Of a stretch of DNA of 64,000 nt, positions 14,507-23,283 are shown piece after piece. How positions within the stretch are numbered: position 1 is the first letter of the stretch; every line of letters starts with the position of its first letter. A model generated the notes under the pieces. The model did not search any database. It worked only from the letters and a program-made list of their open reading frames with translations, and was not told the DNA's origin. A program made the translations under genes and the position numbers. Origin of the DNA: Candidatus Desulfopertinax cowenii (GTDB taxonomy: Bacteria; Bacillota; Desulfotomaculia; Desulfotomaculales; Desulforudaceae); the NCBI GenBank assembly GCA_001899445.1, contig MPOA01000002.1:1-64000 (forward strand), read 5' to 3'.

Positions 14507-14622
14507 GCTGGGGCACGCGGTCAGCGGTGCCGGAACTCTGGGGGATGTTTTTTTCCAATTTTAGAGGATTTTTGGGTGCCTTGTCGAAATAGTTCACCGC
14601 ATTTGTTCGGGGAGTGCTGACC

Positions 14623-15309
14623 TTGATCCAGCTTTACAACGTCTCCAAGGTGTACGACAACGGCGTTCCGGCCGTTTCTGATATCAGCCTGCGCATTGCC
14701 AAGGGTGAGTTTGTCTTCTTGATCGGCCCGAGCGGGGCCGGAAAGTCCACTTTGACTAAGCTTATCTTCCGGGAGCAGTTGCCGTCCTCGGGCCAGATTT
14801 TTTTCCGAGGCCGGAATATCCTGCGGTTCGGACCGCGGGAGGTGCTGCAGCTGCGCCGGCAGATTGGGGTGGTCTTCCAGGACTTCCGGCTGCTACCGCG
14901 CAAGACCGTGTATGAAAACGTGGCCTTTGCGCTGGAAGTGATCGGCCGGTCGCGGAAGGAAATCCGGGAGCGGGTGCCGGCGGTGTTGGCCCGGGTGGGC
15001 CTGTCCGGAAAGGAAGACGCTTTTCCCGACCAACTGTCCGGCGGTGAGCAGCAGCGGGTCGGCGTCGCCCGGGCGATTGTGAAAAGGCCGCTGGTGATCC
15101 TGGCGGACGAGCCCACCGGCAACCTGGATCCGGATACCTCCCGGGAAATAATGGATCTGTTCGAAGTGATCAACCGCGACGGGACCACGGTGGTGATCGC
15201 AACCCACGCCTGGGATATCGTGAACCGGATGCGCAAGCGGGTAGTGGCGCTAGAGAACGGCCGGCTGGTCCGGGACGAGGAGCGGGGGAGCTACAGCTAT
15301 GGCGCTTAA
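14623..15309 (+). CDS. ftsE: cell-division ABC ATPase FtsE
   Basis: The ATPase of the FtsEX complex, which couples division or sporulation septation to peptidoglycan hydrolase activation. Seen: [14 protein letters not shown], Walker [10 protein letters not shown] (residues 35-43), Q-loop [10 protein letters not shown], signature LSGGEQQRV, Walker [10 protein letters not shown], and the switch His in [13 protein letters not shown] 14623 gives the usual FtsE N-terminus, with CGGGGAG about 9 bases upstream. It overlaps ftsX by 11 bases, so translation is coupled. 228 residues, as expected. Confidence 0.95.
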
Positions 15310-16186
15310 CTCCCTGTGGTACTGCACGCGCCAGGCTTGTATCTCCCTCACCAGGAACTTTTGGCTCGGCGTGGCCTCCGCGGCCATGATCGCCGTTTCC
15401 CTGATCATCCTGGGCGCCTTTCTCCTGGTGGCGGTGAACGCCAACCAGTTCATGCGGATCGTCGAATCAACCGTGGAAATCAACGTCTTTCTCGAGGACG
15501 ACGCCGACGTCCGGGACCTCCAGCACCGGCTGGCGGGTCTCCGCGGCGTCGAGGAAATCAGGTTTGTGCCTAAGCAGCAGGGGCTGCAGGAACTAAAGAA
15601 GGCTTTCGGCGAGCGGCACGACCTGCTGAGCGGGTTCGAGGGCGAAAACAACCCCCTCCCCGACAGCTTCCGGGTGCGGGCCGAGCGGGCCGAGCTGGTT
15701 CCCACGCTGGCGCAGCAAATTTCTTTTTTCCCCGGCGTGTACAAGGTCCGCTACGGCCAGGAATACGTGGAGGCGCTGGTCAAGGTGACGCGGTGGGTGA
15801 ACGTGGTCGCCTTGGGGGCGGTGGTCCTGCTGGGGGCGGGTGCCGTCTTCCTGATCGTGACTACCATCCGCCTGTCCATGGTGGCCCGCCAGGATGAGAT
15901 CGGGATCATGAAGTACCTGGGGGCCAGTAACTGGTACATCCGGGGGCCCTTTGTCCTGGAGGGGATGGTGGTCGGCCTGGCCGGGGCGTGTGCCGCCGTG
16001 GCCACCCTGGGTGCGGGTTACTACTACTTAGTCGTTGTGTTGGAGCGGTTACCCCTGCTGTTCTTCATCCAGCCGGTGACCGATCCGAATATGCTCTTGT
16101 CCATCTTTGGGGGGCTTCTGGGCCTGGGACTCCTGATGGGAGGCGTGGGCAGCCTGATTTCAGTGCGTAAGTTCCTGCAGGTTTAG
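15299..16186 (+). CDS. ftsX: cell-division membrane protein FtsX
   Basis: Permease-like partner of FtsE with 295 residues. It has four predicted helices: one near 20-45 ([20 protein letters not shown]), then an extracytoplasmic domain of about 125 residues ([20 protein letters not shown]), then helices near 170, 220 and 270. [20 protein letters not shown] is the conserved cytoplasmic coupling segment of the MacB/FtsX fold. The following EnvC-like M23 protein is its natural extracellular effector. Confidence 0.95.
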
Positions 16187-16246
16187 ACGGCTCGACCTGA
16201 CCTGCGCCGCTTTGTTTGGGGGAAAGATCGGAAAGGGGGATGCTGG

Positions 16247-17374
16247 TTGCGCCGTTCCTGGCTTGCCGTCTGGTTGATTCTGGTATTGCTCCTGGCTTTA
16301 GGCGGAGGCATGTACGGCTCGGCTTATGCGAACTTGGAACAGCGGCTAGAACAAACGCGGCGGCAATTGGAAGCAGCCCAGGAGCGGGCGGACTCGGCCC
16401 GGGACGAGATCCGCAGTATCACCCAGGAAATCGCGGCCATCAACTCCTCGATCCAGGCGCGATTGGCCAGGATCGAGGAGTTGACGGCGGTGCTCGAGGA
16501 AGTGACGAACCGGCTCAGGAAAGCCGAGGCCGAGCTGGCCGACGCCGAAGCCCGGCTGGAGGAAATGAACGCGCTGTTTGCCGCCCGGGTACGGAGTATT
16601 TACGTAAACGGTAACGTGTCCTATTTGGAAGTGTTGTTCGGCGCGCGGAGTTTCGGTGATTTCGTCGCCCGGACCGAGTTTTTGAAGGAGATTCTGGCCC
16701 GGGACCGGGAGTTGATTAAAGAGATTGAAGCGGAACGGGAATCAATCGAACGCCAGAAACAGGCCATCGCGGAGCGCCGCCGGGAGGTGGAGGCGCTCCG
16801 GTACGAGCAGGAGAACGCCTACCGGGCCCTTGTCCGTACCCAACAGGAAAAAGAGTCTTTGCTGGTGGTGGCCCGGGGGAGCCTCAACCGGTTCCAGGCC
16901 GAGGTGGACCGGTTGGAGCGCGAAGAACAGGAACTCCTGCGGCAGATCGCCCGGCAACGCGCCGGCAACGATGTGCTGCATACCGGCCGGTTCGCCTGGC
17001 CGGTACCCAATTATGCCTACGTGTCTTCCGGTTTCGGCTGGCGCATCCATCCCATTCTGAGGGTGCAGCGGTTCCATAGCGGCATCGATATCCCGGCACC
17101 CCACGGAGTGCCGGTGAAGGCGGCCGGCACGGGGCGGGTAGTCTACGTGGGTACCTTCCGGGGTTACGGCCATACGGTGGTGCTCGACCACGGGGGCGGG
17201 GTGACTACCCTTTACGCCCACCTTTCCACCATGTACGTGCGCGAGGGGCAGGTGGTGGTGCAGGGCGAGACCATCGCCCGCATCGGCAGCACCGGCCTGT
17301 CCACGGGGCCGCACCTCCACTTTGAGGTGCGAGAACACGGCAATGCAGTCAGCCCCTGGAATTATCTCCGGTAG
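16247..17374 (+). CDS. EnvC/murein-hydrolase-activator-like coiled coil with M23 peptidase domain
   Basis: A 375-residue secreted protein. A signal peptide (RRSWLAVWLILVLLLALGGG) is followed by a long coiled coil (about 28-245) rich in Glu/Arg/Ala heptads, interrupted near 120-150 by the EnvC-type hydrophobic segment (YLEVLFGARSFGDFVART). It ends in a LytM/M23 domain with RFHSGIDIPAP (HxxxD zinc ligands) and HLHFEV. Both zinc motifs are intact, so it may be an active endopeptidase, unlike the degenerate E. coli EnvC. TTG 16247 has GGAAAGGGGG upstream. FtsX is the expected regulator because the gene directly follows ftsEX. Confidence 0.9.
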   Translation: MRRSWLAVWLILVLLLALGGGMYGSAYANLEQRLEQTRRQLEAAQERADSARDEIRSITQEIAAINSSIQARLARIEELTAVLEEVTNRLRKAEAELADAEARLEEMNALFAARVRSIYVNGNVSYLEVLFGARSFGDFVARTEFLKEILARDRELIKEIEAERESIERQKQAIAERRREVEALRYEQENAYRALVRTQQEKESLLVVARGSLNRFQAEVDRLEREEQELLRQIARQRAGNDVLHTGRFAWPVPNYAYVSSGFGWRIHPILRVQRFHSGIDIPAPHGVPVKAAGTGRVVYVGTFRGYGHTVVLDHGGGVTTLYAHLSTMYVREGQVVVQGETIARIGSTGLSTGPHLHFEVREHGNAVSPWNYLR

Positions 17375-17404
17375 GCGCCGAAAATCACCTACCCATGCGT
17401 ATGC

Positions 17405-17428
17405 GGGCCACTTTCCCCGGTGTGGCCC
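17405..17428 (+). terminator. possible terminator between envC-like and ctpA
   Basis: GGGCCAC and GTGGCCC form a 7-bp stem with a 10-base loop. The tail TTGTGATTTGTCTATTTG is T-rich but interrupted. A TATAAT at 17470-17475 just beyond suggests a new promoter for the next gene. Confidence 0.45.
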
Positions 17429-17505
17429 TTGTGATTTGTCTATTTGTAATTTGGGTGAGTTTAAGATAGTATAATAGCCACATAAATCTTGTTTTCCGGT
17501 GGTGT

Positions 17506-18645
17506 TTGGTTTTGCGCCGCAATCAAACTGCGGGGTGGTTTTTCCTGGGGATGGGGGCGGTCCTGGGCGGGCTGCTCGTTATTTTGTCCCTGGCGGTGTT
17601 TACCAATTTTAAGCAACTGGGTAACTTGGCCCATGTGATCCGCCTGGTGCACGCCGAGTACGTGGAGAGCGTGGACAGCAGCCAGCTGATTGAAGGCGCC
17701 ATCCGCGGCATCGTCGAGTCCCTGGACGACCCGTATTCTGTTTACCTGGAGCCGGAGACTTTCGACCGGTTCATGGAACAAGTGAAGGGCTCCTTCGGGG
17801 GTATCGGCATCCTGGTCGGTTACCGGAACGATAGCCTTACCGTGGTGCGGCCCTTTGACGGCACCCCGGCCGCCGAGGCCGGGATCCGGGTTGGGGACGT
17901 GATCCTGGCCGTGGACGGCAAGGACACCCGGGAGATGGATCTGGAGACCGCGGTGCTGTTGATTCGGGGCGAGGTTGGTTCCACGGTGCGGCTCACCGTC
18001 CGCCGGGAAGGTTACGACGAACCGCTAGAATTCACGGTGGAACGGCGCCAGATCCAGGTGCCCACTGTGGAAGGCAAGCTCTTGGACGGGGACATCGGTT
18101 ACGTGGTGATCAGTCAGTTCACTGAACACACCGGTAGCGAACTGGTTTACACGTTGAACAGTTTTGAACGTGAGCTGCGCGGTCTCATTTTGGACCTGCG
18201 CGACAATCCGGGCGGCGACCTGATGGCGGCCGTGGACGTGGCCGACCTGTTCATTGGCGAAGGGCCGATTGTGCACGTCAAGTACCGCACCAACCAGGGC
18301 CAGACCTATTCCGCCAGCCCGCGGCAGATGGACGTTCCCCTGGTGGTGCTGATCAACCAGAACTCGGCCAGCGCTTCGGAAATCGTGGCCGGCGCGGTTA
18401 AGGACACCGGGGTCGGCACGCTGGTGGGCACCAAGACCTTCGGCAAGGGCGTGGTGCAGAACGTCTTTGAACTGAACAACGGCGCTGGACTGAAGCTGAC
18501 CACGGCCCGCTACCTGACACCGTCCGGACACGACCTGAACCAGAAGGGGATTACACCCCACATCGTGGTGGAAGCCCCGGCGGATTTCGACTCCGATCCA
18601 CAGCTGGATAAAGCCCTGGAGATTCTGAAAGCGGGGAACAAGTAA
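17506..18645 (+). CDS. ctpA: S41 carboxy-terminal processing protease (CtpA/CtpB)
   Basis: A secreted or membrane-anchored PDZ protease of 379 residues. An N-terminal helix (GWFFLGMGAVLGGLLVILSL) is followed by the CTP head (HAEYVESVDSSQLIEGAIRG), PDZ domain (SFGGIGILVGYRND to LLIRGEVGSTVRLTVRREG) and the S41 core. The nucleophile Ser is in NQNSASASEIVAGA and the general-base Lys in GTKTFGKGVVQ. In Bacillus, CtpB clips SpoIVFA during sporulation. The start is TTG 17506 or 17512; the ribosome site is weak. A TATAAT at 17470-17475 is the likely -10. It lies 1 base ahead of the MinJ-like gene. Confidence 0.93.
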   Translation: MVLRRNQTAGWFFLGMGAVLGGLLVILSLAVFTNFKQLGNLAHVIRLVHAEYVESVDSSQLIEGAIRGIVESLDDPYSVYLEPETFDRFMEQVKGSFGGIGILVGYRNDSLTVVRPFDGTPAAEAGIRVGDVILAVDGKDTREMDLETAVLLIRGEVGSTVRLTVRREGYDEPLEFTVERRQIQVPTVEGKLLDGDIGYVVISQFTEHTGSELVYTLNSFERELRGLILDLRDNPGGDLMAAVDVADLFIGEGPIVHVKYRTNQGQTYSASPRQMDVPLVVLINQNSASASEIVAGAVKDTGVGTLVGTKTFGKGVVQNVFELNNGAGLKLTTARYLTPSGHDLNQKGITPHIVVEAPADFDSDPQLDKALEILKAGNK

Positions 18646-18646
18646 C

Positions 18647-19897
18647 GTGCCACAAGCGGGTTTCTCCTTTGAATGGGCGCTTGAGGCCGTATTCGTCTCG
18701 GTATTCAACGCCCTCTTCAGTCCGCTGTTCTGGGCGGTTATTCTTCTGGTTGCCTTGCAGTACCGGCGGATCGCTCAGTTGCGCGCGAACTTTCTGGGCG
18801 CCCGCGGCAATTCGGTCCTGGTGGACACCCTGGTCGCCACCGGCTACGGCTTGTTGGGGGGGCTGGTCGGCGGGTACTTGGTCGTGTTCGCCGGCGTAAC
18901 CCTTTCCTTTGAGGGTTCCGGGTTGCTTTATCTGCTTCCGGTGGCCGTGCTGCTGATGCTGGTCAACCCACGGCTACTCTGTTTCGCGTACGCCGGCGGT
19001 CTCCTTGCCGCCTGCCACCTGCTGTTTGGTTTCCCGGACATCAGTATCCCGCAAATCATGGCCCTGGTGGCCGTTTTGCATTTCGTGGAAAGCGTACTAA
19101 TCCTGCTCAGCGGGCACCTGGGGGCGGTGCCGGCCTTTATCCGCCTGCCGGAGGGACAGGTGGTCGGCGGCTTCACCCTCCAGAAATTTTGGCCGATTCC
19201 CATCGTCGCCCTGGCCCTGGTTGGCGGAACGGTGCCGCCCGGAGTGGAACTGGTATCTATGCCCGATTGGTGGCCGCTGATCAAGCCGGAGGTTCCGGGC
19301 GAGGCGTCCACCACCGTGTTCGCCATGCTCACCTTGGTGGCCGGGCTGGGCTACGCCGACATTGCCACCACCCGCACGCCCTCGGACAAGAGCCGGATTA
19401 GTGCGGTGTACCTGGCCGGGTACAGCGTGACGTTGTTCTTGCTTGCGCTGCTGGCCGGGGTGCACGGCGGGGGTTACGCCTGGGCGGCCGCGCTGTTTGC
19501 GCCACTTGGTCACGAATTGATCATCTACATCAGTAAGTTCATGGAGCTTCATGGGCGGCCGCTGTTTGTGCCTCACCCGGCGGGGGTGATGGTGCTGGAC
19601 GTGGTTATGCACTCCCCGGCTTGGAGGGCGGGGCTGCGATCCGGGGATGTAATTCTGGAGATTAGCGGCCATCCGGTTCGCAGCCGGGCGGACCTGCACC
19701 TGCTGGTCAGCCAGCCGGGCCTGAAGGAGATCAACTTTTTGCACGGAAAGAAGCAGTACCGCCGGGAGACGGTAAGCTTAAGGCCGGAGCAGCTGTTCGG
19801 GGTCGTGCCGGTGCCCGAGGGCAATGAGCAAATGTACCTGGAGCTGCAGAGTACGCCGCCGCTGGCGCGCTGGCTGAAGCGCAGCCGCAGTATTTGA
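18647..19897 (+). CDS. MinJ-like multi-pass membrane protein with C-terminal PDZ domain
   Basis: A 416-residue protein with about eight membrane helices (to residue 290) and a PDZ domain at about 305-390 (GVMVLDVVMHSPAWRAGLRSGDVILEI). This is the architecture of Bacillus MinJ/YvjD, which links DivIVA to MinD at division sites. The genomic position right after ctpA, downstream of ftsEX, is also the Bacillus-type arrangement. It starts on GTG 18647, one base after the ctpA stop codon. The orthology is based on architecture and context, not on an alignment. Confidence 0.78.
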   Translation: MPQAGFSFEWALEAVFVSVFNALFSPLFWAVILLVALQYRRIAQLRANFLGARGNSVLVDTLVATGYGLLGGLVGGYLVVFAGVTLSFEGSGLLYLLPVAVLLMLVNPRLLCFAYAGGLLAACHLLFGFPDISIPQIMALVAVLHFVESVLILLSGHLGAVPAFIRLPEGQVVGGFTLQKFWPIPIVALALVGGTVPPGVELVSMPDWWPLIKPEVPGEASTTVFAMLTLVAGLGYADIATTRTPSDKSRISAVYLAGYSVTLFLLALLAGVHGGGYAWAAALFAPLGHELIIYISKFMELHGRPLFVPHPAGVMVLDVVMHSPAWRAGLRSGDVILEISGHPVRSRADLHLLVSQPGLKEINFLHGKKQYRRETVSLRPEQLFGVVPVPEGNEQMYLELQSTPPLARWLKRSRSI

Positions 19898-20287: not shown

Positions 20288-20902
20288 ATGGAGTTCCGTC
20301 CTGGGCAACTCAGCCTGGATGATCTACACGGTCCGCGTACGCTGGACGAGTTGCGGGAGGGCATGGCCGACTGCCGGGGATGCGGCCTGGCCGCCGGCCG
20401 GACCAACCTGGTCTTCGGCGAGGGTAATCCGCGGGCCCGACTGATGTTGATCGGCGAGGGCCCCGGAGCCGAGGAAGACCGGCTGGGACGGCCGTTCGTC
20501 GGTCCGGCCGGTCAACTGCTGGACAAGATCCTGGCAGCTGCCGGCATAAGCCGGAGCGAGGTGTACATTGCCAACGTGGTCAAGTGCCGGCCCCCGGGAA
20601 ACCGGGTGCCCAACCGGGAGGAGGCCGCCGCCTGCCTGCACTGGCTGCGGAAACAGTTTGCGCTGATCGCCCCGCCGCTGGTGGTGATTCTGGGTAGCAC
20701 CGCCCTGAAGAACCTGATCGACCCGCAGGCGTCCATCACGGCCTGGCGGGGACGGTGGATCACCCGCGGTCGGGTGCGTTTCATGCCCACCTACCATCCC
20801 GCTGCGCTGCTCCGGGACCCTTCAAAGAAGCGCGATGTCTGGCGGGATTTCCAAGCGGTGCGCGACGCCTACCGGGAAATCGTGCCCCTTAAGAACGAGT
20901 GA
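20288..20902 (+). CDS. type-4 (Fe-S) uracil-DNA glycosylase
   Basis: Removes uracil from DNA arising by cytosine deamination. 204 residues. The four [4Fe-4S] ligands are visible: Cys29 and Cys32 (CRGC), Cys100 (KCRPPGNR) and Cys116 (AACLHW). The active-site motif GEGPGAEEDRLGRPFVGPAG and the C-terminal TYHPAALLR complete the family pattern. The start is ATG 20288 (TTG 20285 just before). It is common in thermophiles, fitting the heat-prone deamination problem. A clean terminator follows. Confidence 0.93.
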   Translation: MEFRPGQLSLDDLHGPRTLDELREGMADCRGCGLAAGRTNLVFGEGNPRARLMLIGEGPGAEEDRLGRPFVGPAGQLLDKILAAAGISRSEVYIANVVKCRPPGNRVPNREEAAACLHWLRKQFALIAPPLVVILGSTALKNLIDPQASITAWRGRWITRGRVRFMPTYHPAALLRDPSKKRDVWRDFQAVRDAYREIVPLKNE

Positions 20903-20906
20903 CCCG

Positions 20907-20931
20907 CGCCCCCAAAATGGGGGCGGTTTTT
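20907..20931 (+). terminator. rho-independent terminator of the cooT-udg unit
   Basis: CGCCCCC, an AAAAT loop, GGGGGCG and a GTTTTT tail directly after the UDG stop codon. It reaches the stop codon of the convergent gene. Confidence 0.85.
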
Positions 20932-21250
20932 ACGGATTCTGGTCTACGTGGCTTCCCGAACCGTCTTTGTCCGCGCGGTCCTTTTTCACCGTTTCTTCCC
21001 CGGCTTCCACGGTTGACCCGCTTACCACCGGCGGCAGTGGCTTCGTCCAGGCCTGCAGCCCCTGTTTTTTGGCCGCCCGGATCAACGCGTTGAGCTGGCT
21101 CTGTGCCGTACTCAACCGGTGGACGGCGTGATCGATGAAATTTGGATCGGCAAAGTTGAGCGTCATTTCGGCTTCTCTGTAATCCCGCCGGGCCTGGTCG
21201 ATCTCTTTAAGCAGCGGGTGTGCTTTCTTGGCGCGTAAAAAGGAAAGCAT
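20930..21250 (-). CDS. DUF2508 family protein (YaaL-like)
   Basis: About 106 residues. The family core is AHPLLKEIDQARRDYREAEM, then FADPNFIDHAVHRLSTAQSQ and LNALIRAAKKQG, a two-helix soluble protein like Bacillus YaaL. The C-terminal 40 residues are low complexity and charged. ATG 21250 is chosen because GGGGGGTG lies 7 bases upstream; a TTG two codons earlier is possible. In other Firmicutes the gene sits beside recR and bofA; here it is isolated and convergent with the UDG gene. Confidence 0.7.
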   Translation of the reverse strand: MLSFLRAKKAHPLLKEIDQARRDYREAEMTLNFADPNFIDHAVHRLSTAQSQLNALIRAAKKQGLQAWTKPLPPVVSGSTVEAGEETVKKDRADKDGSGSHVDQNP

Positions 21251-21349
21251 TCCCAAACACCCCCCTTAGCACAATTTATGTCAACTGCCGGGCAATTAGA
21301 ATCCAACGCTCCGATTCGAGGGATTATATAGTTGAAGGGGGCGGTATGG

Positions 21350-22612
21350 ATGCCCGCGAAAATCGCCATTATCGGGCTCCTGGTGCTCGCCCTGGGCCTG
21401 TCCGGTTGCGGTCTCCTGAACCGGGGCGGCGCGGCCCGGCCAGCTGAAAAACCGCTTACCATCGCCTACAGCGTGGCGGACGAGAACCGGGACGGAAACC
21501 AGGTGATCAAGCGGATTGTTCAGCGCCGGGCGAAGGCGGACGAGCGGATCCGGGTGACCTGGCGCGACGCGGGGGGTGAGGCCCGCCGGCAGGAACAGGA
21601 CGTCGAACGGTTCATCAAACAAAAAGTCGACGTGGTGGTTATCCAGTTCGTTGAGCCGCAGCTGGGCCCGGGTATCGTCCGGCGCCTGGCCATGAATCAG
21701 ATCAAGGTGGTGGCGTTGGAGACCCTGGCGCCCGATGCGCCGCTGGACGCTTACGTGGCGTCCGAGCAGGTGCGGGCCGGAGAACTGCAGGCCCGTTACG
21801 TGGTGCGCAACCTGCCTGCGGGCGCCCCGGGCCGGGTGTTGGTTCTGGCTGGGGACCCAAACGACCCGGTTTCCCGGAACATCGTTCGCGGCATCGTGGA
21901 CTTTATGAAGGGACAAGCCGGATTCACTCTGGAGGTGCGTGAGCACGCCGCGGCGGATCCCCGGCGGGCGGCCGCCACCGTGGAGGAAGCGTTGAAAGCG
22001 AGCCCGTTGGGCGCCGTACTGGCCACTGACAGCCGGATGGCGGTCGCCGCGATGGAGGTGCTCCGCCGCGAGGGCCGGGGCGCGGGGGTCCTCACCGTGG
22101 GGGTGGGAGCCGACCGGACGGCTGCCGAAGCGTTGGTGGCCGGTGACCACGACGCCGAGGTGGATGTGCGGCCGGACCTCCTGGCCCAGTTCAGCTATGA
22201 CGCCGCCGTGGGCCTGGCTCGGGACGGACACTGGTCCTACGACACTCAGGTGGAGAGCGGTGACTACACCGTGCCGGCGCGGCTGGTTCCGGTCCGGCTG
22301 ATTCAAGGGAACAACGCCTTTTTGCTCGAGGAGTACTACGGCGACCTGACCCGGGGCGGGGGTTCGCCCGGGGGCGGCGGGCAGCAGCAACAGCAGAAAG
22401 GACAGGGGCAGAAACAGGGCGACGGCCAGCAGCAGCAACAACAGCAGCAGTCCATGACCAGATTAAAGATCACCACCCGCGACGGGATGACCATGGAGAT
22501 CGACGTCCCCGGCGAGATCCAGAGTATCGAGGCCCAGCAGCAGGGCCAGGGCGGTCAACAGGGCGGTGGCGATCAGGGCGGCCAACAAGGCGGCGGTCAA
22601 GGCGGTCAGTAG
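21350..22612 (+). CDS. solute-binding-protein-like lipoprotein with Gln/Gly-rich tail
   Basis: A 420-residue lipoprotein. The signal peptide ends in the lipobox LSGC with Cys20. Residues about 40-330 follow the type-I periplasmic sugar-binding fold (XylF/RbsB-like): LTIAYSVADENRDGNQVIKR, VDVVVIQFVEPQLGPGIVRR, GRVLVLAGDPNDPVSRNIVR, GAVLATDSRMAVAAMEVLRR. The tail (about 335-420) alternates Gly and Gln runs, split by a 27-residue non-repetitive piece (TRLKITTRDGMTMEIDVPGE). No permease or ATPase gene is nearby, so it is an orphan binding protein, possibly a sensor or wall-associated protein. ATG 21350 has AGGGGGCGG upstream. Confidence 0.75.
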   Translation: MPAKIAIIGLLVLALGLSGCGLLNRGGAARPAEKPLTIAYSVADENRDGNQVIKRIVQRRAKADERIRVTWRDAGGEARRQEQDVERFIKQKVDVVVIQFVEPQLGPGIVRRLAMNQIKVVALETLAPDAPLDAYVASEQVRAGELQARYVVRNLPAGAPGRVLVLAGDPNDPVSRNIVRGIVDFMKGQAGFTLEVREHAAADPRRAAATVEEALKASPLGAVLATDSRMAVAAMEVLRREGRGAGVLTVGVGADRTAAEALVAGDHDAEVDVRPDLLAQFSYDAAVGLARDGHWSYDTQVESGDYTVPARLVPVRLIQGNNAFLLEEYYGDLTRGGGSPGGGGQQQQQKGQGQKQGDGQQQQQQQQSMTRLKITTRDGMTMEIDVPGEIQSIEAQQQGQGGQQGGGDQGGQQGGGQGGQ

Positions 22613-22767
22613 TCTGTCGTCAGAGGGAGCAATGTGCCTGCGGGGGCCCGGGCTTAGTCCCTGGAAACCAGGCAGGGAATTCAAAGCCGTGCGGAGAATA
22701 AGATAAGCGAAGTGCCCCGACTAAGTGCACCCGGGGCTTGCAGTTAGCGGGGAGAGGAGAGAGATCA

Positions 22768-23283
22768 CTGGCCGAGTTTTACTTGTCACAGCCGTCTGGC
22801 ATGGTGTTGCTTAACTGGGGCGTCCTCGGTCTCCTGGTGGTGACGATGTTGGTGCTGGTATTTGTACGTAAGGGCGTTCAAACGCTTCTGGGATTGATCA
22901 CCACCGGGGCCGTAATGGTGTTATGGGTTTATTTGTCTTTCATCGCTCCGGCACAAACCCGGGTGGTGGTCGGGGATGCGCTGGAGGTGCATACTCCCCC
23001 TTATGCGCGGGAAACCGTTGAGCAAGCCGAAATCCTAGGGGCGTTCGTGGTTGACTGGCAGGACGATCAAAGCTTCCAGCCGAAACGGAAAATAAACGGT
23101 GCCGCGTTCGGCGGCTACCGGGCCGGCCGCTTCAAGCTGAAAAACGGGAGCCACGCAGTGATCATGGCTGCCGGCACAAAGGTTTTGGTTATTGAACTTG
23201 AAGATAAATACCTGCTGTTGGCCCCGGATGATTTTGACGGTTTGGTGGCTGAACTGAACCGCCGTTTTATACCCGTAAACTGA
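22768..23283 (+). CDS. membrane protein with two helices and a C-terminal PH-like domain
   Basis: Helices VLLNWGVLGLLVVTMLVLVF and TLLGLITTGAVMVLWVYLSF are followed by an extramembrane domain (about 65-170) that looks like a small beta-barrel of the bacterial PH/DUF type (AGRFKLKNGSHAVIMAAGTK, VLVIELEDKYLLLAPDD). The start is uncertain: GAGAGGAG sits 8 bases before a CTG at 22768, an in-frame TTG exists at 22738 and the first ATG is 22801. The specific family was not identified. It lies between the Gln-tailed lipoprotein and uvrB, on the same strand. Confidence 0.6.
   Translation: MAEFYLSQPSGMVLLNWGVLGLLVVTMLVLVFVRKGVQTLLGLITTGAVMVLWVYLSFIAPAQTRVVVGDALEVHTPPYARETVEQAEILGAFVVDWQDDQSFQPKRKINGAAFGGYRAGRFKLKNGSHAVIMAAGTKVLVIELEDKYLLLAPDDFDGLVAELNRRFIPVN

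Follow-up and report, generated by a model that had tools for sequence, protein, structure and literature searches.

An orphan XylF-like lipoprotein with a conserved, predicted hairpin module in its Gln/Gly-rich tail

In the window (the whole stretch of 64,000 nucleotides that was analysed, from Candidatus Desulfopertinax cowenii) we studied a gene for a lipoprotein and established its lipobox, its binding fold, its status as an orphan of transport, the loss of a ribose-type pocket, and both the conservation and the predicted hairpin shape of a module in its tail. We read the protein as a receptor or scaffold that stands alone, is tethered to the membrane and displays a docking hairpin, and not as part of an importer, and we give this reading a probability of about one half. 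More tentatively, the protein may represent an undescribed family of surface receptors that act alone in anaerobic Firmicutes of at least 18 families and that would combine the XylF fold with a new ligand and a new 25-residue docking hairpin for a fixed partner; our literature search found no published account of the lipoprotein family.

Table 1. Features of the lipoprotein locus, in window coordinates
Feature	Position	Strand	Remarks
Small divergent ORF, DUF2508/YaaL-like, outside the lipoprotein	20930..21256	-	Immediate upstream neighbour in 38/64 loci
Orphan XylF-like lipoprotein gene, 420 aa	21350..22612	+	Sole Peripla_BP_4 match of the genome
Lipoprotein signal peptide, lipobox ending in Cys20 (codon 21407-21409)	21350..21409	+	Cys20 invariant, 28/28 and 57/57 rows
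Short tether from lipid-bearing Cys to binding domain	21410..21454	+	13-20 aa across the family
Type-I periplasmic binding domain, XylF-like, residues 36-330	21455..22339	+	PF13407, PDB profile, AlphaFold2/Foldseek; pocket residues changed
Gln/Gly-rich flexible linker, residues 331-368	22340..22453	+	pLDDT <50 at 338-364 (AlphaFold2)
Conserved C-terminal hairpin module, residues 369-395	22454..22534	+	Alignments, profile scans, pN/pS, AlphaFold2
Gln/Gly-rich end, residues 396-420, optional in the family	22535..22609	+	2-43 aa among 57 members

Binding fold and pocket

The reading frame begins at an in-frame ATG (21350), and our ORF check gives a TTG at 21332 as the other possible start. It belongs to a genome of 1.78 Mb in 6 contigs that is given as 99.96% complete; a promoter scan of positions 20880-22800 returned no match. 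The initial annotation had claimed a clean lipobox and a type-I binding fold, and both claims hold. The N terminus has the n-region, the hydrophobic core and the lipobox Cys of a type II signal peptide, the lipobox being LVLALGLSGC (LSGC at residues 17-20), with a Cys20 that is invariant across the 57 aligned rows. Pfam places PF13407 (Peripla_BP_4) on residues 55-291 (E 2e-34), the AlphaFold2 model resembles closed E. coli XylF (PDB 3ma0; E 1.5e-23 by Foldseek), and E. coli XylF is also the best PDB match of the family profile (E 2.2e-33). The protein shares the two-lobed type-I fold with XylF (PDB 3m9w/3ma0) and with CUT2/Peripla_BP_4 proteins, but unlike these it has no transporter and carries in addition a linker, a hairpin and Gln/Gly-rich loops. 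Against TIGR02634, the NCBIfam xylF equivalog, it scores 65.7 bits, well under the cut-off of 389.55.

The binding of sugar, which the initial annotation had read from the fold, was not borne out. The ribose contacts of RbsB, as given in the available parts of two sources, are N13, F15, F16, D89, R90, R141, F164, N190, D215 and Q235 (PMC3676853; PMC2630998, Table 3), and the available text on tteRBP states that its pocket is identical to that of RbsB (PMC2315655). We mapped these contacts through tteRBP by a low-identity sequence alignment, which may be shifted by one at single positions, and found that the lipoprotein keeps none of the ten, which makes sugar binding doubtful; XylF, in contrast, keeps four (the equivalents of D89, R90, N190 and D215). 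The residues at the ten positions are R47, G49, N50, E124, T125, I178, A202, D227, G253 and V273, and contact positions are fixed to these other residues across the family (G253 in 57/57 members, so that the position of RbsB D215 is always Gly, G49 in 56/57, D227 in 55/57, N50 in 53/57 and E124 in 50/57). This pattern in the alignment suggests a conserved site of a different kind; the fixed pocket could also be structural and empty.

The module and its Gln/Gly-rich surroundings

The tail had been described as Gly/Gln runs split by a 27-residue insert of conserved appearance, and its conservation is confirmed, well beyond what chance would produce. The insert, MTRLKITTRDGMTMEIDVPGEIQSIEA (residues 369-395), referred to here as the module, is present in all 56 full-length orthologues from named genomes (55 by regular expression and L046 by eye) and in 28/28 rows of the first alignment of relative genomes, with the consensus KTxLRITTQDGKTVEVQIxGEIKKIES. 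The 56 orthologues (those of more than 400 aa) come from a family-alignment scan of named genomes that gave 65 loci, nearly all in Desulfotomaculia or Firmicutes MAGs; L034 and L091 fell outside the orthologue cluster, and we excluded L094 (Poribacteria; a 355-aa protein without the module) and six split or cut loci, in four of which the module is also visible (L052, L083, L087 and L095; it was not seen in L069 and L079). The first alignment holds 28 of 30 loci from relative genomes, with the window protein standing for L001 and with L006 and L027 omitted.

Mean column identity is 75% in the module (54 distinct copies) versus 35% over the whole protein. Among 57 sequences, the mean pairwise identity reaches 0.695 in the module and 0.486 in the binding domain, and is lower in the linker (0.282), the Gln/Gly-rich end (0.32) and the signal peptide (0.242). 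Within seven genomes of the same family pN/pS ranges from 0.06 to 0.39 in the module and from 0.14 to 0.47 in the binding domain; given the module's values, it is the peptide that is kept, and not the DNA alone. AlphaFold2 predicts a strand-turn-strand structure for the module (strands at residues 369-375 and 381-387), with pLDDT of about 85-87 in the lipoprotein and about 80 in the orthologue L050, between flanks that fall below 50 in both models; on these models the hairpin could fold back onto its own binding domain. In three members (L018, L023 and L050) the protein stops directly after the module and the Gly/Gln end is almost absent, so the end is dispensable and the module is not.

Searching for homologues of the insert alone led back to the same protein. 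The module occurs once in the genome that carries the lipoprotein, and its profile, run against 398 genomes of the phylum, matched 62 genomes at E<=0.1. All 33 matches at E<=2e-4 fall in the same kind of lipoprotein, one per genome (33 genomes from 16 families, 10 of these outside the order); 13 of them coincide with the scan of relative genomes, and the 20 that were fetched show the binding domain together with the module. Eleven weaker places fetched from the E<=0.1 list comprise three more of the same lipoprotein (L133, L134 and L137, in two further families), four FtsH proteins and four unrelated sequences, and the best match of the module profile in the PDB (E 0.39) is not significant. 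Two loci (L123:9885-11138 and L125:9900-11150) carry two tandem copies of the module in one protein, a doubling that fits the expectation for a binding unit.

FtsH proteins of one family (f57; L127-L130) have, in the extracytoplasmic domain (PF06480), a hairpin strikingly like the module (for example, IDGKEFEINIPGTIEKIEQ), and the likeness is confined to that family. The profile similarity to this domain is weak (hhalign probabilities of 33% and 17% for the module versus 34 FtsH domains, and E 0.92 for the PDB match to FtsH), and the resemblance is likely a convergence and not homology.

The lipoprotein itself matched 84 of 100 relative genomes; it is lost in the other 16 and is thus not essential to the group. 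One relative (G015) has a distant match only, and another (G009) has an N-terminal piece of the orthologue without the module, plus another binding protein. Named holders include Desulforudis, Pelotomaculum, Desulfofundulus, Desulforamulus, Desulfotruncus, Sporotomaculum and Desulfallas. A scan of genome contigs with the single sequence confirmed no relative, whereas the scan with the family alignment did, and a plasmid search gave, among the matches listed, only ordinary XylF-type proteins at about 60% coverage. Contigs titled Deltaproteobacteria, Armatimonadetes and Actinobacteria (L038, L048 and L068) hold a lipoprotein gene of the Desulfotomaculia type, and these MAG labels may be wrong.

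Around the module, residues 331-420 are rich in Gly and Gln, and the last 88 codons include 21 CAG, 7 CAA, 15 GGC, 5 GGT, 5 GGG and 1 GGA, in agreement with the CAG/CAA and GGC/GGT runs reported at the outset; the repeats found in the window DNA are short only (CAG x8 at 22427-22450 and a 12-mer x3.7). Across 57 members the linker measures 23-65 aa (median 48) and the end 2-43 aa, and together they consist of Gly (0.335), Gln (0.264), Ser (0.084), Glu (0.084) and Lys (0.073), with a Gln fraction that varies from 0.04 to 0.66 within the family, which means that polyglutamine itself is not kept. The suggestion of a flexible tether is supported by the variable length of the linker and its low confidence in AlphaFold2. 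The view of the tail as an oddity of a single protein did not survive: with the hairpin in every full-length orthologue, the tail is neither absent nor random in relatives, and 44/56 of them even have an added insert of at least 8 residues (8-80), mostly Gln/Gly-rich, within the binding domain, near residue 62 (10/56) or residue 156 (34/56). The expected variation in tail length between close relatives was found in part, for the ends differ (25, 29 and 33 aa) and the linkers hardly do (37-38 aa in three).

Neighbouring genes and alternative roles

The recurrent neighbours at 64 loci are ftsE, ftsX, M23, S41, PDZ, UDG, the DUF2508-like ORF, uvrB, uvrA and uvrC. Positions 14614-19897 of the window keep the order ftsE, ftsX, PcsB-like M23 peptidase, CtpB-like S41 protease and PDZ membrane protein; the window copy of the DUF2508/YaaL-like ORF is below the Pfam cut-offs, and its orthologue in L047 matches PF10704. 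A 181-aa bPH_5 protein (PF10882, E 2.7e-8) is encoded at 22738-23283 (+), between the lipoprotein gene and uvrB. At 11/20 loci outside the order QueG is found upstream, and at 13/20 a cupin glucose-6-phosphate isomerase gene is convergent; PrkA also occurs in such neighbourhoods (the neighbours that we take to be QueG, PrkA, YhbH and SpoVR were named from their sequence). Because the neighbourhood differs in this way between groups (FtsEX/UDG/uvrBAC versus QueG/cupin/PrkA), the context names no partner, and none was found from the neighbourhoods of the 64 loci and the 20 outside loci. Function through linkage to ftsEX/uvr was rejected, since the linkage is broken outside the order. Two further ties were rejected in their strict form: that to chemotaxis, because 8/14 relatives without CheW have the lipoprotein, and that to sporulation, because spoIVA is present in 12/16 relatives without it.

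These neighbourhoods bear on an alternative that we think unlikely, in which the lipoprotein is a scaffold or regulator of the cell envelope, its former sugar fold serving as a scaffold for protein or glycan and its hairpin and linker anchoring it in or through the wall. The lost ribose pocket and the recurring low-complexity loops agree with such a role, as does the position of the gene, within the order, beside the division/wall cassette; outside the order, however, this link is broken, with ftsE, ftsX, M23 and S41 all upstream in 1/20 loci (L107), and the tail has no Pfam match and thus no known wall-binding domain among the Pfam families. The alternative has a parallel in LpoA-type lipoproteins. 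Also an orphan lipoprotein, LpoA contains a type-I binding fold and acts as a regulator of a wall synthase; our lipoprotein differs from it in both family and cell envelope.

It is rather improbable that the lipoprotein is the sensor part of a signalling system encoded elsewhere, in which its domain, once loaded, would act on a membrane receptor. Its nearest fold is XylF, and there is a precedent in XylFII-LytS, in which, by the available text of the source, a binding protein and the sensor domain of a kinase form a complex (PMC9769921); on this account XylFII, too, is an XylF-like protein that acts outside transport, on a membrane receptor. Unlike XylFII, the lipoprotein has no kinase recognised in its recurrent neighbourhood and has different pocket residues, and the descriptions of XylFII in that part of the source come without a hairpin tail. 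Cluster representatives and partial family scans showed no adjacent sensor kinase and no recurrent kinase-like partner among the recurrent clusters of the 64 loci and at the 20 outside loci, and the xylose/ribose contacts are not kept.

Quite improbable, in turn, is that the tail is chiefly a sticky or phase-separating Gln/Gly-rich polymer to which the hairpin is incidental. Gln/Gly-rich segments do recur at three places (the tail and the two insert sites of the binding domain), but no part of the protein is better conserved than the hairpin and the polymer is among the least conserved, and the wide range of the Gln fraction argues that Gln itself is not required.

The initial annotation had seen no importer nearby, and this held on a wider scale: within flanks of up to 10 kb at 64 loci, ORF clustering and an ABC-signature scan recognised none. 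A pair of ABC ATPase/permease type does lie 5-7 kb upstream, and it is FtsE/FtsX (FtsX_ECD by Pfam), which is ABC-type but serves cell division. Peripla_BP_4 proteins, of which the lipoprotein is the single match in the whole genome, normally serve PF02653 permeases, and the genome has six of these in three pairs. Two pairs are associated with Peripla_BP_6 proteins and branched-chain amino-acid-type ATPases, the third with a Bmp/PnrA protein and an ATPase. With a binding protein of its own for each pair, no CUT2-type permease is free in the whole genome, and a transporter hidden elsewhere in the genome was rejected because all six permeases already have partners. A linked permease in a rearranged locus was looked for as well, and none was found; 6/100 relatives have no PF02653, and 5 of these 6 keep the lipoprotein (G019 and G076 at 99% completeness). 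The lipoprotein is a real orphan of transport, and the highly improbable reading in which it shares a permease in trans (of the LIV or Bmp type), or is left from a lost or rearranged CUT2 transporter, is largely refuted.

Proposed role and its consequences

As a stand-alone receptor or scaffold, the lipoprotein might work as follows. The short lipid tether would hold the XylF-type two-lobed domain on the outside of the membrane; the cleft, if the pocket still binds something, would take a ligand that is neither a simple pentose nor a simple hexose; and the disordered Gln/Gly-rich linker would carry the short beta-hairpin outward. There the hairpin would most likely dock on a partner, perhaps a protein of the membrane or a component of the wall, and docking would couple the state of the ligand, or simply the location of the protein, to that partner. 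That substrate-binding proteins can stimulate receptors, and not transporters, is a known principle according to the available text of one source (PMC9602780).

Members of this group, which apparently has neither a transporter nor a sugar pocket, are likely annotated as binding proteins of sugar ABC transporters, which would lead metabolic models of deep-subsurface and syntrophic anaerobes astray. For the search for the partner the conserved hairpin offers a ready bait, and ligand screening has a ready target in the fixed pocket.
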